DNA from: Oryzomonas sp.
GTDB taxonomy: Bacteria > Desulfobacterota > Desulfuromonadia > Geobacterales > Pseudopelobacteraceae
Assembly (NCBI GenBank): GCA_031292255.1
Contig: JARLHN010000034.1
Coordinates: 1 to 64,000 of the forward strand
Length of the DNA: 64,000 nt
Direction of reading: 5' to 3'
Shown here: in pieces, positions 47,474 through 52,314 of the stretch
Layout: each line of letters starts with the position of its first letter
Numbering within the stretch: the stretch's first letter is position 1
Program-made: the position numbers and the translations under genes
Notes under the pieces: model-generated
What the model saw: only the letters and a program-made list of their open reading frames with translations
Databases searched by the model: none
Told to the model about the DNA's origin: nothing

Positions 47474-47856
47474 CTTGGCCGTTTTTCCGCGCCAGGGTCT
47501 CCACACGGCACAATTCAGGTAACTCCATTTCCGCTTCCCCACATGTATCGTGTTGAGTCCGGATCGTGTTACTCTCCTGTAGCACCTGTTACGAAGATAC
47601 GCATTGCCATTCCTCCTGTCGCGGTCAGGAGAGGTTCACAAGACATCGAACGAAAGCCGCGTGCCGACGTGAAAACTTGAACCCCATTGATTTGCTTCGC
47701 GCGCTCATTGGTGCCGCTAATAGAGCAACCAGCCCGGATTGGCAACAAAGCGCCAGGAGATTAGTGGATATTCTCATGATGGGATCGCGGCCGATCAAGT
47801 AGATCTGTCCCCCAATGTTTAACACATCGCCCCGATCGTTAAACGAAGGACACAAA
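47474..47856. other. Intergenic region without clear gene
   Basis: The only reasonable plus-strand frame ends at 47802 with a protein-like tail (LLRALIGAANRATSPDWQQS...), but has no ribosome-binding site, and its first third is cysteine-rich and unlike any protein. It may be a fragment. Confidence 0.4.
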
Positions 47857-49266
47857 ATGACACCCACAGCATTACGAATCCTGCTTGCCGTTTTTATCTG
47901 CGCATGCCTGCAGACAGCGGCGTCAGCGCTGCTGATCGAAGATACGCCCATCAAGCTCGATGCTTCGCGCAACGAGCAGATCATCACAGTCCCCAGCGAC
48001 GATCTCCATCCGGTCAAGCTTCAACTGACCCTGTTCACTCCCAATGGCTCCGGACCATTTCCGCTTGCGATCATGAACCATGGTTCCGACGGCAACACGT
48101 CCGCCAAGCTCAATCCGAGGAACCGTTCACCACTGGCGGTCGGGTATTTCCTTTCCCGCGGCTATGCGGTGGCCCTCCCCATGCTGCGCGGGTACGCCGG
48201 TTCCGAGGGGCAGCTCGAGATTCGCGGCTGCGATCCGGCAACTGTCGGGATTGACGATGCCAAAGACATCTATGCCATCATCAATTACCTCTCGACATTC
48301 TCCGCTATCGACAGCAGAAACATCCTCGTGGCCGGCCAAAGCTTCGGCGGCTGGAACACCCTCGCCCTGGGCACCCTCAAGCATCCCTGGGTCAAGGGGC
48401 TGATAAATTTCTCGGGCGGGATGCTGGTGCCCACCTGCCCGAACCCGGAATACAGTCTGGTTGCCGCTGTTGGTCAGTTCGGAGCGCACACCTCGGTCCC
48501 TTCTCTCTGGTTCTACGGGGAAAACGACAAGCTGTTTCCGGTATCGCTCTGGCGTGCCATGTACGAGCGCTACACCGCAGAGTGGGGACCGGCAGAACTC
48601 GTAGACTACGGTGTGTTCAAAGACGATTCGCATATGATGCTCGGGTATCAGGAGGGGCTGGCCATCTGGGTGCCGAAGGTGGATGCCTTCCTTGCCAAGG
48701 TGGGTTTGCCCAATACACCCGTTTACCCGGAGTACCTGCCCATTTCCTTTCCGCAACCGTCGAACTATGCCGCTATCGACAATGTCGATGCCGTACCTTA
48801 CCTGAACGATACGGGGCGCGAGTCCTACCGGAAATTCCTGGACAGACCGTTGCCGCGCGCATTCGTTGTGGCCCCGAATGGCACTGCGGCGGCAACTGAC
48901 GGCGGCGTTGATCCGCTGGGCAGGGCGCTGAAGTTATGCCGGCAAAAAGCGCGCGGCTGTCAGGCCTATGCCTTAAACGATTTCGTCGTGTGGACCGGCC
49001 CGGAAGAGACCCCGAAGAAGGCCGGTTTTGCCGCGATCGATGATGTCACCGCAGTGCCGTATCTGAATGAGAAAGGTCGGCAGGGCTACCAGAAGTTCCT
49101 GACGATGAAGAAACCACGTGTATTTGTCATAGCGCCCAACGGTTCATGGAGCGCTTTCATGCAGGGGAGGGACCTTGTCGCAAATGCATTGAAGGCATGC
49201 GGCAAGGCCAGCAATGAATGTCGGGTATATGCTGTGGACGATGAGGTCGTATGGAAGCAGGAGTAA
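47857..49266 (+). CDS. Secreted alpha/beta hydrolase with duplicated C-terminal module
   Basis: A 469-residue exported protein. It has a signal peptide (ALRILLAVFICACLQTAASA) and a dienelactone-hydrolase-like alpha/beta domain (about 20-300): MNHGSDGN, a nucleophile elbow GQSFGGW, an acid in YGENDKLFP and His in DDSHMML. It then carries two tandem repeats of about 75 residues (YAAIDNVDAVPYLND... and FAAIDDVTAVPYLNE..., each ending in CRVYAVDD-type strands). I do not recognise the repeat family. GAAGGAC precedes the ATG. Confidence 0.82.
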   Translation: MTPTALRILLAVFICACLQTAASALLIEDTPIKLDASRNEQIITVPSDDLHPVKLQLTLFTPNGSGPFPLAIMNHGSDGNTSAKLNPRNRSPLAVGYFLSRGYAVALPMLRGYAGSEGQLEIRGCDPATVGIDDAKDIYAIINYLSTFSAIDSRNILVAGQSFGGWNTLALGTLKHPWVKGLINFSGGMLVPTCPNPEYSLVAAVGQFGAHTSVPSLWFYGENDKLFPVSLWRAMYERYTAEWGPAELVDYGVFKDDSHMMLGYQEGLAIWVPKVDAFLAKVGLPNTPVYPEYLPISFPQPSNYAAIDNVDAVPYLNDTGRESYRKFLDRPLPRAFVVAPNGTAAATDGGVDPLGRALKLCRQKARGCQAYALNDFVVWTGPEETPKKAGFAAIDDVTAVPYLNEKGRQGYQKFLTMKKPRVFVIAPNGSWSAFMQGRDLVANALKACGKASNECRVYAVDDEVVWKQE

Positions 49267-49497: not shown

Positions 49498-49587
49498 CCT
49501 CTCTGTAAAGAGCAAACCTGGGGCAACCCGGGGACGCAAAGCCGCGGGTCCAAAATATGAAAGGATAGCCGGGCTACCGAAAAGAGG
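49498..49587 (+). promoter_or_regulatory. GEMM-I riboswitch, GEMM-Ib (cGAMP) type
   Basis: P1 is CCTCT/AGAGG at the two ends. The core AGAGCAAACC is followed by a hairpin TGGG GCAA CCCG (GNRA tetraloop), then GGGACGCAAAGCC, GGGTCC...GGATAGCC and GGGCTACC, the conserved GEMM-I framework. The base corresponding to Vc2 G20 reads A (AGAGC instead of AGGGC), the signature of GEMM-Ib riboswitches, which in Geobacter bind 3',3'-cGAMP. It lies directly before a terminator and the S53 peptidase gene. Confidence 0.88.
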
Positions 49588-49613
49588 GCGAGAGATGTTA
49601 TCGAGCGTCCTTC

Positions 49614-49642
49614 TAATTTTAATGAGGGACGCTTTTTGTTTT
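49614..49642 (+). terminator. Riboswitch-controlled intrinsic terminator
   Basis: AGCGTCC/GGACGCT stem followed by TTTTTGTTTT. The 5' side (CGTCCTT) can also pair with GAGGGCG (49584-49590), which overlaps the 3' strand of riboswitch P1, giving a possible antiterminator. This predicts that P1 formation, hence ligand binding, favours termination; direction needs testing. Confidence 0.82.
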
Positions 49643-49689
49643 AGGTGTCCCCATCTGAATCTCTGAAAATCAGAATCGGAGGTAGTGCC

Positions 49690-52314
49690 GTGCATAAAAT
49701 AATGTCGAGATTCGTTGCCGTTTTTTACGCCTTGGCGGTCACTTTGGCAGCATCCATGGCCTACGCCCGCACTATTGACAACAACAACCGCATCGCGTTG
49801 CCCGGAAACGTTCACCCCTCCGCTCAGACGAAGTACGATGCCGGAGCTGCGAGTGACACTCTCCCACTGACGAACATGGTATTGTCGCTGACGGTACCGC
49901 AAAACATCCAGACTCAACTCGAAGAATTCCTGGCCAGCCAGCAAAATCCATCATCTTCCAACTACCACAAGTGGCTTGCACCGGCTGAATTCGGGGCGCA
50001 ATTCGGTAATTCGGCAGAGGATATAACAACGACCACCAATTGGCTGAAGTCCTTTGGCTTCACCATAAATGCCGTAAGCGGCAGCAGAACTTGGATCAAC
50101 TTTTCCGGTACTGCTGCAATGGTCAAAGCGGCATTCGGCACTCCCATTCACAACTATACCATCAACGGCCGGACATATACCGCCAACTCACAGAACCCGA
50201 CAATCCCCGCGGGTTTTTCCGACCTCATAGCCGGTGTGGTAACCCTGCATAATTTTCCACGCGGCGCTATGAATACCGGCGCCAAAACATTGGCCGCAGA
50301 CGTACCGTCCAAGCCTGAATATACCAACGGCAGCAGCCACTATATTGCACCTGGTGATTTTGCGACCATATATGACCTCAATCCGCTGTACAGTGCAGGT
50401 ATCACCGGTAATGGTCAAACTATTGCCATAGTCGGCCGCACTCATCCGTCCGGCACCAACTGGGCCAATTTCAGAAGTACGATGGGACTCCCCGCGAATC
50501 CGCCGCAAGTGATTATAAACGGCCCGGACCCCGGCGATCTTGGCGCCAGCGAAGATCTCGAAGCTGACCTGGACGTGGAATGGTCCGGAGCGGTCGCAAA
50601 AAATGCAACCATAAAATTTGTGGTATCCAAATCGACCAACTCGACTGACGGTGTCGACCTTTCAGCACAATATATCGTTGAAAACAATCTGGCGCCTCTT
50701 ATGAGCGTAAGCTTCGGTGCATGTGAAGCCCAGATGGGCACCGCCGAGAACACCTTTTATAACAATCTCTGGCAACAGGCGGCAGCCCAAGGCATATCGG
50801 TCTTTGTGTCCTCTGGCGATTCAGGAGCGGCAGGATGCAGCTCCTCCGGCTCGACAACGGGTTCTGGGCTTGGTGTGAACGGACTCGCATCCACTCCGTA
50901 CAACGTGGCTGTCGGCGGCACTGAATTCAACGAAGGCAGCGGCAGTTACTGGAACTCAACGAATGGCACCGGAGACACTTCCGCAAAGAGTTATATCCCT
51001 GAGACAGCATGGAATGAATCAGGCAGCGGCAACGAAGGGCTCTGGTCGTCCGGGGGAGGGGTGTCGATCATTTATGCAAAACCATCATGGCAAGTCGCAT
51101 CGGGAGTCCCCTCGGATGGCATGAGGGATGTTCCTGATGTTGCGCTAACCAGCTCCGGCCATGACGCCTATATGATCGTTTCGCAGGGACAACTTGAGGC
51201 TGTATCGGGTACATCCGCGGCATCCCCGTCATTCGCGGGGATCATGGCTCTCGTCGTGCAAAAATATGGCCGTCAAGGCAATCCCAATCTCAGTCTGTAT
51301 CCGCTCGCAAAGGCGCAATACGGCGGCTCCGGTGTGGCGGCCTTTCATGACATTACATCCGGGAATAACAGTGTGCCGGGCGTAGTGGGATACACCGCCG
51401 GAACCGGATATGACAGGGTAACCGGCCTCGGTTCCGTCGATGCAAACGTCATGGTGACCAAGTGGACATCATCGACGGGATCAACAACTCCTGCACCTGC
51501 GCCGACCTTCAAGTTGACCGACTCTGCATCCACCATTTCGCTGGTGGCAGGCAACAACGGAACGCTGACAGTCGGCACCACGACAAGCGGCAGCTTCACC
51601 GGCAGCATTACCCTCTCGATATCCGGCCTGCCTTCCGGCGTTAGCGCGGCATTCAGCCCGGCGACAATCACGACCCCAAGTTCCGGCAACTCAACACTAA
51701 CGTTTGCATCCTCCCCCTCGACTACGCCGGGCACTTACTTGCTCACTATTACTGCTGCAGGGGGTGGCATGACGCAGACCGCTTCAGTGTCACTGACGAT
51801 GACCGCGCCGCCTGTCACCGGAACCACTCTGGTTACCGATAACTTCGCGGGAGGCGGCTGGGACACCCTGGAAACGAGCGCTATCGACAGTGCCATCTGG
51901 GGATTGGTTGCCAAGGGGTCTACACCGACAGCCACACCCTACACCGGTAGTGCTATGGCGGAATTCAATTCAGCAGCGGCCAAAACCGGCAATCAGGCTG
52001 TACTCGCCCGTGTCACGGGCATTGCGCTCCCGACTACCGCCAAAATGGTCACCCTGAAATTTTGGATGTATCATGACAACGGAGACCAAGCGGCAACCGA
52101 CACATTGCAACCTGTTATTTCCATGACAAAGAACCTGTCTACATGGACAAAGGTAGGGACCGCCATATCGCGGTATGCCGCCACCAACGGATGGGCGCAA
52201 GCCAACGCCGACCTGACCGCTTATAAAGGGCAAACAGTTTACATAGGTTTCCTCGGTACAAGTGCCCATGGGGAGAATATGTATCTCAATGAAATCACCG
52301 TGACCGATCAGTAG
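49690..52314 (+). CDS. Secreted S53 (sedolisin/kumamolisin) peptidase
   Basis: An 874-residue protein from GTG (GGAGG seven bases before; ATG four codons on). It has a signal peptide (FVAVFYALAVTLAASMAYA) and a kumamolisin-type prodomain (about 45-210). The catalytic domain runs about 215-590: acidic pair in ASEDLEADLDVEW, oxyanion Asp in SSGDSGAAG (near 377), Ser in SGTSAASPSFAG (near 507), and the Ca-binding FHDITSGN/GYDRVTGLGS. A C-terminal Ig-like domain and a jelly-roll-like domain (ending YLNEITVTDQ) follow. It is an acid-type serine-carboxyl peptidase, exported and probably autoactivated. Transcription depends on the riboswitch. Confidence 0.93.
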   Translation: MHKIMSRFVAVFYALAVTLAASMAYARTIDNNNRIALPGNVHPSAQTKYDAGAASDTLPLTNMVLSLTVPQNIQTQLEEFLASQQNPSSSNYHKWLAPAEFGAQFGNSAEDITTTTNWLKSFGFTINAVSGSRTWINFSGTAAMVKAAFGTPIHNYTINGRTYTANSQNPTIPAGFSDLIAGVVTLHNFPRGAMNTGAKTLAADVPSKPEYTNGSSHYIAPGDFATIYDLNPLYSAGITGNGQTIAIVGRTHPSGTNWANFRSTMGLPANPPQVIINGPDPGDLGASEDLEADLDVEWSGAVAKNATIKFVVSKSTNSTDGVDLSAQYIVENNLAPLMSVSFGACEAQMGTAENTFYNNLWQQAAAQGISVFVSSGDSGAAGCSSSGSTTGSGLGVNGLASTPYNVAVGGTEFNEGSGSYWNSTNGTGDTSAKSYIPETAWNESGSGNEGLWSSGGGVSIIYAKPSWQVASGVPSDGMRDVPDVALTSSGHDAYMIVSQGQLEAVSGTSAASPSFAGIMALVVQKYGRQGNPNLSLYPLAKAQYGGSGVAAFHDITSGNNSVPGVVGYTAGTGYDRVTGLGSVDANVMVTKWTSSTGSTTPAPAPTFKLTDSASTISLVAGNNGTLTVGTTTSGSFTGSITLSISGLPSGVSAAFSPATITTPSSGNSTLTFASSPSTTPGTYLLTITAAGGGMTQTASVSLTMTAPPVTGTTLVTDNFAGGGWDTLETSAIDSAIWGLVAKGSTPTATPYTGSAMAEFNSAAAKTGNQAVLARVTGIALPTTAKMVTLKFWMYHDNGDQAATDTLQPVISMTKNLSTWTKVGTAISRYAATNGWAQANADLTAYKGQTVYIGFLGTSAHGENMYLNEITVTDQ

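Follow-up and report, generated by a model that had tools for sequence, protein, structure and literature searches.

The window analyzed here, a 64,000-nucleotide stretch of an Oryzomonas sp. genome (contig JARLHN010000034.1, forward strand), carries a GEMM-I riboswitch in the leader of a gene for an 874-residue S53 peptidase. The RNA has the pocket bases of a cyclic GMP-AMP (cGAMP) aptamer, and we consider it probable that this GEMM-I cGAMP-type riboswitch (A20, A47, C92) controls transcription of the peptidase gene as an OFF switch, a reading in which we infer both the ligand and the direction of switching. The first-pass annotation had proposed a candidate cGAMP riboswitch in front of a secreted peptidase; its observation is confirmed, and its interpretation is partly supported.

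What appears to be new is the predicted OFF direction of a cGAMP-type GEMM-I RNA, within a family whose specificity base changes. In the titles and abstract openings of the literature searched, we found no case of a cGAMP riboswitch associated with a protease, a sedolisin, an OFF switch, or HD-GYP; the two founding PNAS 2015 papers and PMC7209772 lie outside that search, and their lists of switches could contain OFF cases or peptidases. If the reading is correct, one signal can raise some surface genes and lower others directly at the RNA level, and the secreted peptidase is here among the genes that cGAMP lowers.

Aptamer, ligand pocket, and signal source

The complete GEMM-I aptamer, including a 5-bp P1, spans positions 49498-49587. 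Its core, comprising P2, P3, and the junctions (49502-49582, + strand), is the sole Rfam match at gathering level in the window, to RF03167 (c-di-GMP-I-GGC; E = 5e-13). The score is 64.8 bits against a threshold of 59 for RF03167 and 69.5 bits against 35 for RF01051 (clan CL00126), and by RF01051 the aptamer ranks third among the 14 GEMM-I matches in the genome. Sequence and alignment also contain the P1-P2-P3 junction with A47 and C92, so that the GEMM-I framework noted earlier is borne out by covariance search.

Position 20, where Vc2 has G, is A at 49511 (+) in both sequence and alignment, as the first-pass annotation had claimed. Position 47 is A (49538, +) and position 92 is C (49577, +), which in our own mapping correspond to A41 and C75 of the cGAMP aptamer. 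The numbers 20, 47, and 92 are what we take to be the Vc2 positions, placed on the window by ourselves. The name of the Rfam family was rejected as evidence for cyclic di-GMP (c-di-GMP): the consensus of RF03167 has G20/G47, where the window has A at both positions. The RF03168 (c-di-GMP-I-UAU) consensus, with U20/U92, differs as well, and the suffix GGC presumably denotes positions 20, 47, and 92, as read from the Rfam consensus lines.

Excerpts of PMC6274999 list G8, A9, A11, A12, A14, C15, G40, A41, A42, and C75 as the contacts of the cGAMP aptamer. The window matches G8, A11, A12, A14 (which is position 20), A41, A42, and C75 in our mapping, and the equivalents G14, A17, A18, and A48 (Vc2 numbering) are likewise present. 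In a Geobacter aptamer, an A20G change shifts selectivity from cGAMP to c-di-GMP (PMC6456294, in excerpt). From the mapped contacts and the effect of A20G, we read A20, A47, and C92 of the window as cGAMP-type pocket bases, judged by sequence.

Other features of the pocket weigh against cGAMP as the ligand. Three contact equivalents differ (A9 to U, C15 to G, and G40 to C); those of C15 and G40 face each other and form G-C in the window and C-G in the cGAMP aptamer, amounting to one swapped pair. Furthermore, A20 aptamers may retain affinity for c-di-GMP: in Desulfobacca, a probed A variant acquired affinity for cGAMP and kept much of its affinity for c-di-GMP, which was perhaps slightly weakened (PMC9481103, excerpt). 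The window also has G21-C22 (G21 pairing with C46), as in the RF03167 consensus, where the genomic RNA L012 and the RNAs L096 and L103 have C21-U22. We liken the C21-U22 scaffold of these three to the pgcA aptamer and presume that the scaffold is class-defining. The G21-C22 scaffold would then lower the likeness of the window aptamer to cGAMP-selective GEMM-Ib RNAs rather than exclude binding. A20 is a good marker of cGAMP selectivity but does not suffice by itself.

The retained c-di-GMP affinity of the Desulfobacca variant and the kept G21-C22 both speak for an alternative in which the OFF switch is the same but responds physiologically to c-di-GMP, or to both dinucleotides, with A20 only shifting affinity. 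The peptidase would then be off in c-di-GMP-high states. We consider this rather unlikely, given the reported flip of a Geobacter cGAMP aptamer to c-di-GMP on changing A20 to G, the presence of A20 in all four copies of this RNA in the genome (the window, L002, L004, and L010), and the Hypr-type GGDEF proteins encoded alongside them.

With respect to the signal source, the genome has 34 GGDEF matches, of which 30 were read, 27 of them with a readable motif. The pocket position is Ser (Hypr-type) in L045 and L046 and Thr in L050. The best solved-structure hit of both Ser-type proteins is 6d9m, at 229 bits for L045 (next hit 144) and 133 bits for L046 (next hit 120). The 6d9m entry is a lysozyme fusion, consistent with the T4 lysozyme-Gmet_1914 structure of PMC6456294 (excerpt). 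The Ser-for-Asp replacement that marks a GGDEF protein as a cGAMP synthase is thus present at the sequence level, and since the Ser-type proteins are closest to 6d9m, a cGAMP source in the genome is likely.

Terminator platform and direction of switching

An intrinsic terminator follows the aptamer, as had been noted from the sequence. Its 5' arm (49605-49613, +) and 3' arm (49624-49632) enclose a loop of 10 and are followed by TTTTTGTTTT; the 3' arm and U tract together occupy 49624-49642 (+), and the hairpin has a predicted energy of -17.3 kcal/mol. A consensus terminator scanner did not list it, because that scanner permits loops of 3-8. The terminator begins 21 nt past the aptamer end and is compatible with the aptamer.

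The P1 5' strand CCUCU (49498-49502, +) pairs with the P1 3' strand AGAGG (49583-49587, +) in the predicted folds of several transcript lengths, not all. The latter overlaps the antiterminator 5' strand GAGGGCG (49584-49590, +), whose partner CGUCCUU (49606-49612) lies in the terminator 5' arm, so that this segment doubles as the antiterminator 3' strand. Since the P1 3' strand continues into the strand that pairs with the terminator 5' arm, a ligand-stabilized P1 should free the terminator. Computationally, the leader therefore combines an aptamer-independent terminator with a competing antiterminator, as in an OFF switch. At low cGAMP, 49584-49590 would pair with 49606-49612, the terminator would be blocked, and the peptidase gene would be transcribed. 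At high cGAMP, P1 would be locked (49498-49502 with 49583-49587), the terminator arm would be freed, and transcription would end at 49633-49642, with the signal supplied by the genome's own Hypr-type GGDEF proteins. The first-pass suggestion that the terminator arm can pair with a strand overlapping P1, making ligand promote termination, appears to be upheld by three paralogs and by a covarying antiterminator in relatives.

The other GEMM-I RNAs of the genome fall into two layouts. In 7 of the 14 (L005, L006, L008, L009, L011, L012, and L014), the terminator reuses aptamer sequence, an ON layout; in 5 of the 14 (the window, L002, L004, L010, and L007), it lies at least 21 nt past the aptamer, an OFF layout; and in the remaining 2 of the 14, no terminator was found. 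L002, L004, and L010 are window paralogs with the same layout, and Rfam assigns RF03168 to L004. A20 occurs in four of the five OFF-layout RNAs, the exception being L007, and also in L012 (ON layout) and L013 (no terminator found). With an A20 aptamer on an ON platform in the same genome, expression of one set of genes would rise with cGAMP and that of another would fall. L012 is also part of a tandem GEMM-I arrangement at L018:7296-7534 (C42:77295-77533 of the same genome), in which a G20 aptamer, L001, lies about 77 nt downstream of this A20 ON-type aptamer. No terminator was found for L001; the tandem precedes a 429-aa open reading frame (ORF) and could act as a two-signal gate.

The closest known systems are the Geobacter cGAMP (GEMM-Ib) riboswitches, e.g. 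those of pgcA (GSU1761) and pilM / Gmet_0970, which share with the window the GEMM-I fold, the equivalents of A20, A47, and C92, a Hypr-type GGDEF in the genome, and a transcription terminator platform. They differ in direction: those studied are ON switches (PMC6456294 and PMC9262584, excerpts). This precedent supports a further alternative, that the window RNA is likewise a cGAMP ON switch whose ligand somehow prevents termination, as does the best fold with a complete terminator arm, which already holds the terminator. Because the terminator fold wins and P1 forced beside it costs about 2 kcal/mol, P1 is not in itself proof of switching. We nevertheless regard an ON switch as very improbable on grounds of layout. 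The pilM terminator sequesters aptamer sequence (PMC9262584, excerpt), and in the seven ON-layout RNAs of this genome the terminator 5' arm lies inside the aptamer, whereas the window terminator is separate and aptamer-compatible, with an antiterminator that competes with P1. The OFF switch that we favor has the logic of the Cd1 c-di-GMP-I riboswitch of Clostridioides difficile, also OFF, in which bound aptamer and terminator coexist and a competing antiterminator disrupts the aptamer in part (PMC9262584, excerpt). The likeness to Cd1 is one of logic and not of platform sequence, and Cd1 senses c-di-GMP whereas the window has A20.

Fold energetics allow for such a switch. As the transcript lengthens, its minimum-energy fold first contains P1 (115-130 nt), then the antiterminator (135 nt), and finally the terminator (140 nt and longer). 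At the length immediately preceding synthesis of the terminator 3' arm, the P1-aptamer ensemble lies at -40.8 kcal/mol and the antiterminator at -39.7 kcal/mol, a gap of only 1.1 kcal/mol, so that ligand energy could decide between them. During emergence of the terminator 3' arm, the antiterminator is ahead by 0.5 to 1.1 kcal/mol.

The same calculations hold several points that count against an OFF switch at this locus. At 115 to 130 nt, the minimum-energy folds contain P1 instead of the antiterminator, and with a complete terminator the terminator state is ahead by 5.8 kcal/mol, so that switching must be kinetic. The window antiterminator has two G-U pairs, one of them in place of G-C, and before termination the P1 state is favored over it by 1.1 kcal/mol; in the three siblings the antiterminator is instead favored over P1 by 4.1-7.5 kcal/mol, and in the RNA of G024 by 2.3 kcal/mol. 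Because its antiterminator is disfavored, unlike those of its siblings, the window copy may, according to these models, terminate strongly when no ligand is bound, and its ligand threshold or its ceiling may be low. Additionally, a promoter scan found no sigma-70-like promoter upstream of the riboswitch.

The window antiterminator state is the least favored of the five compared, and sibling L010 has two broken P2 pairs. Both observations fit a decaying duplicate of an OFF switch, in which the terminator would be constitutive or the leader leaky, ligand control would be slight, and the peptidase downstream would have been acquired recently. We judge such decay quite improbable: the pocket, P1, P2, P3, and the terminator are all intact, and a C-to-U change in the terminator arm is offset by a G-to-A change in the opposite arm, while a G-U pair is kept in the antiterminator.

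A putative OFF-platform family across the order

We built a covariance model of the aptamer plus antiterminator, R1, from five sequences, four of them with A20, and ran it on 141 genomes of the order, scoring up to 25 candidates per genome. An R1 match at 1e-6 was present in at least 116 of the 141 genomes, and a large share of these matches are probably generic GEMM-I RNAs. Among the matches listed, 49 places reached at least 77 bits; 47 were aligned (two places in G128 were left out), and a weak second hit in L157 brought the alignment to 48 rows. Pairing in the antiterminator helix amounts to 95.7% across these rows, five of its seven pairs have changed on both sides, and none of 500 shuffles matched the whole-structure values. 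A terminator hairpin on the antiterminator strand is present in 44 of the 48 rows, the misses being L017, L158, L211, and the second L157 hit; another terminator scan showed a weak hairpin for L017.

Position 47 is A in all 48 rows. Position 20 varies, with 21 A, 19 G, and 7 C among the 47 aligned places; the second L157 hit also has C. Homologous downstream proteins are found behind different bases: L186 (A) and L224 (G) share 75% identity; L205 (A) and L221 (C) share 70% and have a homolog in the Oryzomonas genome behind the G20 ON-type RNA L014; and L015 of the same genome (A), L185 (C), and L199 (A) share 47-48%. Remoter paralogs were matched across differing bases as well, e.g. L211 (C) with L196 (G) and L212 (A) with L197 (G). 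Elsewhere the base is kept between homologs: C20 in L202/L209 (49% identity); G20 in L187/L204, L201/L175, and L203/L217; and A20 in L214/L218, L215/L216, L222/L223, and L016 of the Oryzomonas genome with L194 (43% identity). Homologs whose switches naturally differ at position 20 make the evolution of riboswitch specificity directly testable.

The C20 members on the OFF platform include L202:3831-3938, L209:4077-4187, L221:1712-1832, L185:3997-4117, and L192:324-431. Behind L202 and L209 lie homologous papain-family proteases; with C20 thus kept in both genomes, the C20 RNAs are candidates for a further specificity. Pfam searches, run on one downstream protein each for 20 of the 47 RNAs, identified targets including a multihaem cytochrome, a chemoreceptor, sensor kinases, a FIST protein, RHS repeats, and an Lcl_C lipoprotein.

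HD-GYP phosphodiesterase genes were found behind 6 of the 47 RNAs, and all six RNAs have A20 (L016, L194, L222, L223, L215, and L216). Five of the six have Pfam support; an HD-GYP profile built from five of the six was then run on frames within 4 kb behind all 48, with less than 3 kb of downstream DNA at 7 of the 47 RNAs. Two near-identical homolog pairs are among these cases, which therefore represent three or four independent ones. The A20 at all six hints at feedback on cGAMP.

These distributions bear on the ligand in both directions. The G20 found on the same platform in 19 of the 47 members, together with the A20/G20 difference at the homologous L186 and L224 genes, favors the alternative of a c-di-GMP ligand, and the occurrence of A20 at all six HD-GYP-linked RNAs goes against it. 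Because position 20 is A, G, or C on one platform, A20 may also reflect drift or mixed specificity, which tells against a dedicated cGAMP switch, and the pair counts come from an alignment fitted to the R1 model and hence lean towards it. For the family as a whole, we tentatively propose, with somewhat less than even confidence, an order-wide GEMM-I OFF family in which position 20 (A, G, C) has been swapped repeatedly at homologous genes, passing control between cGAMP, c-di-GMP, and perhaps a third, C20-read ligand. The A20/cGAMP members would turn off secreted and surface proteins, such as the peptidase, and HD-GYP genes as signal feedback; a different A20 aptamer of the Oryzomonas genome would be an ON switch.

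In five genomes (L187, L189, L204, L205, and L221), the OFF-type RNA is separated from the next same-strand gene by an ORF of opposite orientation, judged FmdB-like by eye, through which the leader would run antisense.

The S53 peptidase and its pairing with the riboswitch

Downstream of the terminator, a Shine-Dalgarno-like GGAGG (49678-49682, +) precedes the 874-aa S53 (sedolisin/kumamolisin) peptidase gene, which begins with GTG (49690-52314, +). The protein has a pro-domain, matching Pro-kuma_activ (PF09286; E = 1e-30), a catalytic domain, of which residues 220-586 align with sedolisin 1ga1 (E = 4e-36), and motifs EADLD, SSGDSG, and GTSAASP that align with those of sedolisin. We take these motifs to supply the catalytic Glu, Asp, Asp, and Ser. 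It shares pro-domain, catalytic-domain homology, and motifs with sedolisin and kumamolisin and differs from them in an extra C-terminal region, which has a choice-of-anchor J domain at its end. Homology of the pro-domain and catalytic domain thus places it in S53, as the first-pass annotation had it; for the export claimed there, a putative signal peptide was recognized by eye.

PF09286 gave 31 matches in 22 of the 141 genomes of the order. R1 was run on 30 of these 31 loci with 1,500-base flanks, on 24 named relatives, and on 8 further loci, giving 62 partly overlapping sources, with little upstream DNA at L136, L142, L151, L153, and L154. The only R1 hits in these 62 sources were the window itself and two weak hits in L132 (27.8 and 20.7 bits), R1 being tuned to the OFF family and able to miss other GEMM-I types. 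Using RF01051 in seven relatives, with up to 150 candidates scored per genome, no listed GEMM-I RNA lay within 10 kb of a peptidase homolog. Conservation of the riboswitch at homologous peptidases in other genomes, a possibility raised from the sequence, was accordingly not found. Apart from the window, no S53 locus searched carries an R1 match immediately upstream, and five peptidase homologs in relatives, with 55-60% identity, are without such an RNA there. The named peptidase relatives are from Geomonas, Geomesophilobacter, and a Geobacteraceae metagenome-assembled genome, and also from Acidobacteria and others; those from Geomonas, Geomesophilobacter, and Geobacteraceae, along with the Gmet_1914-like cyclase, point to Geobacterales as the order.

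Five congeners have no PF09286 match, and their best R1 score is 66.9 bits; in G001 alone a distant match to the catalytic region of the peptidase was seen (34-35% identity). Among the loci searched, the link between riboswitch and peptidase is thus confined to this one genome, a point against the favored reading. As the congeners have neither a PF09286 match nor an RNA of comparable score, the pairing of switch with peptidase is probably young. The state of the congeners would also suit the decaying duplicate considered above.

Among the long named homologs of the peptidase, that of L132, from Geobacteraceae bacterium Bin.003_Forest, is the closest, at 63% identity. At L132:1006-1082, an A20 GEMM-I RNA of the other scaffold stands at the gene before this homolog, and a terminator-like stretch near 2695-2725 lies between the GEMM-I-linked gene and the peptidase homolog. 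In the window itself, a hydrolase gene with S15/S9-like domain matches occupies 47815-49266, upstream of the riboswitch on the same strand.

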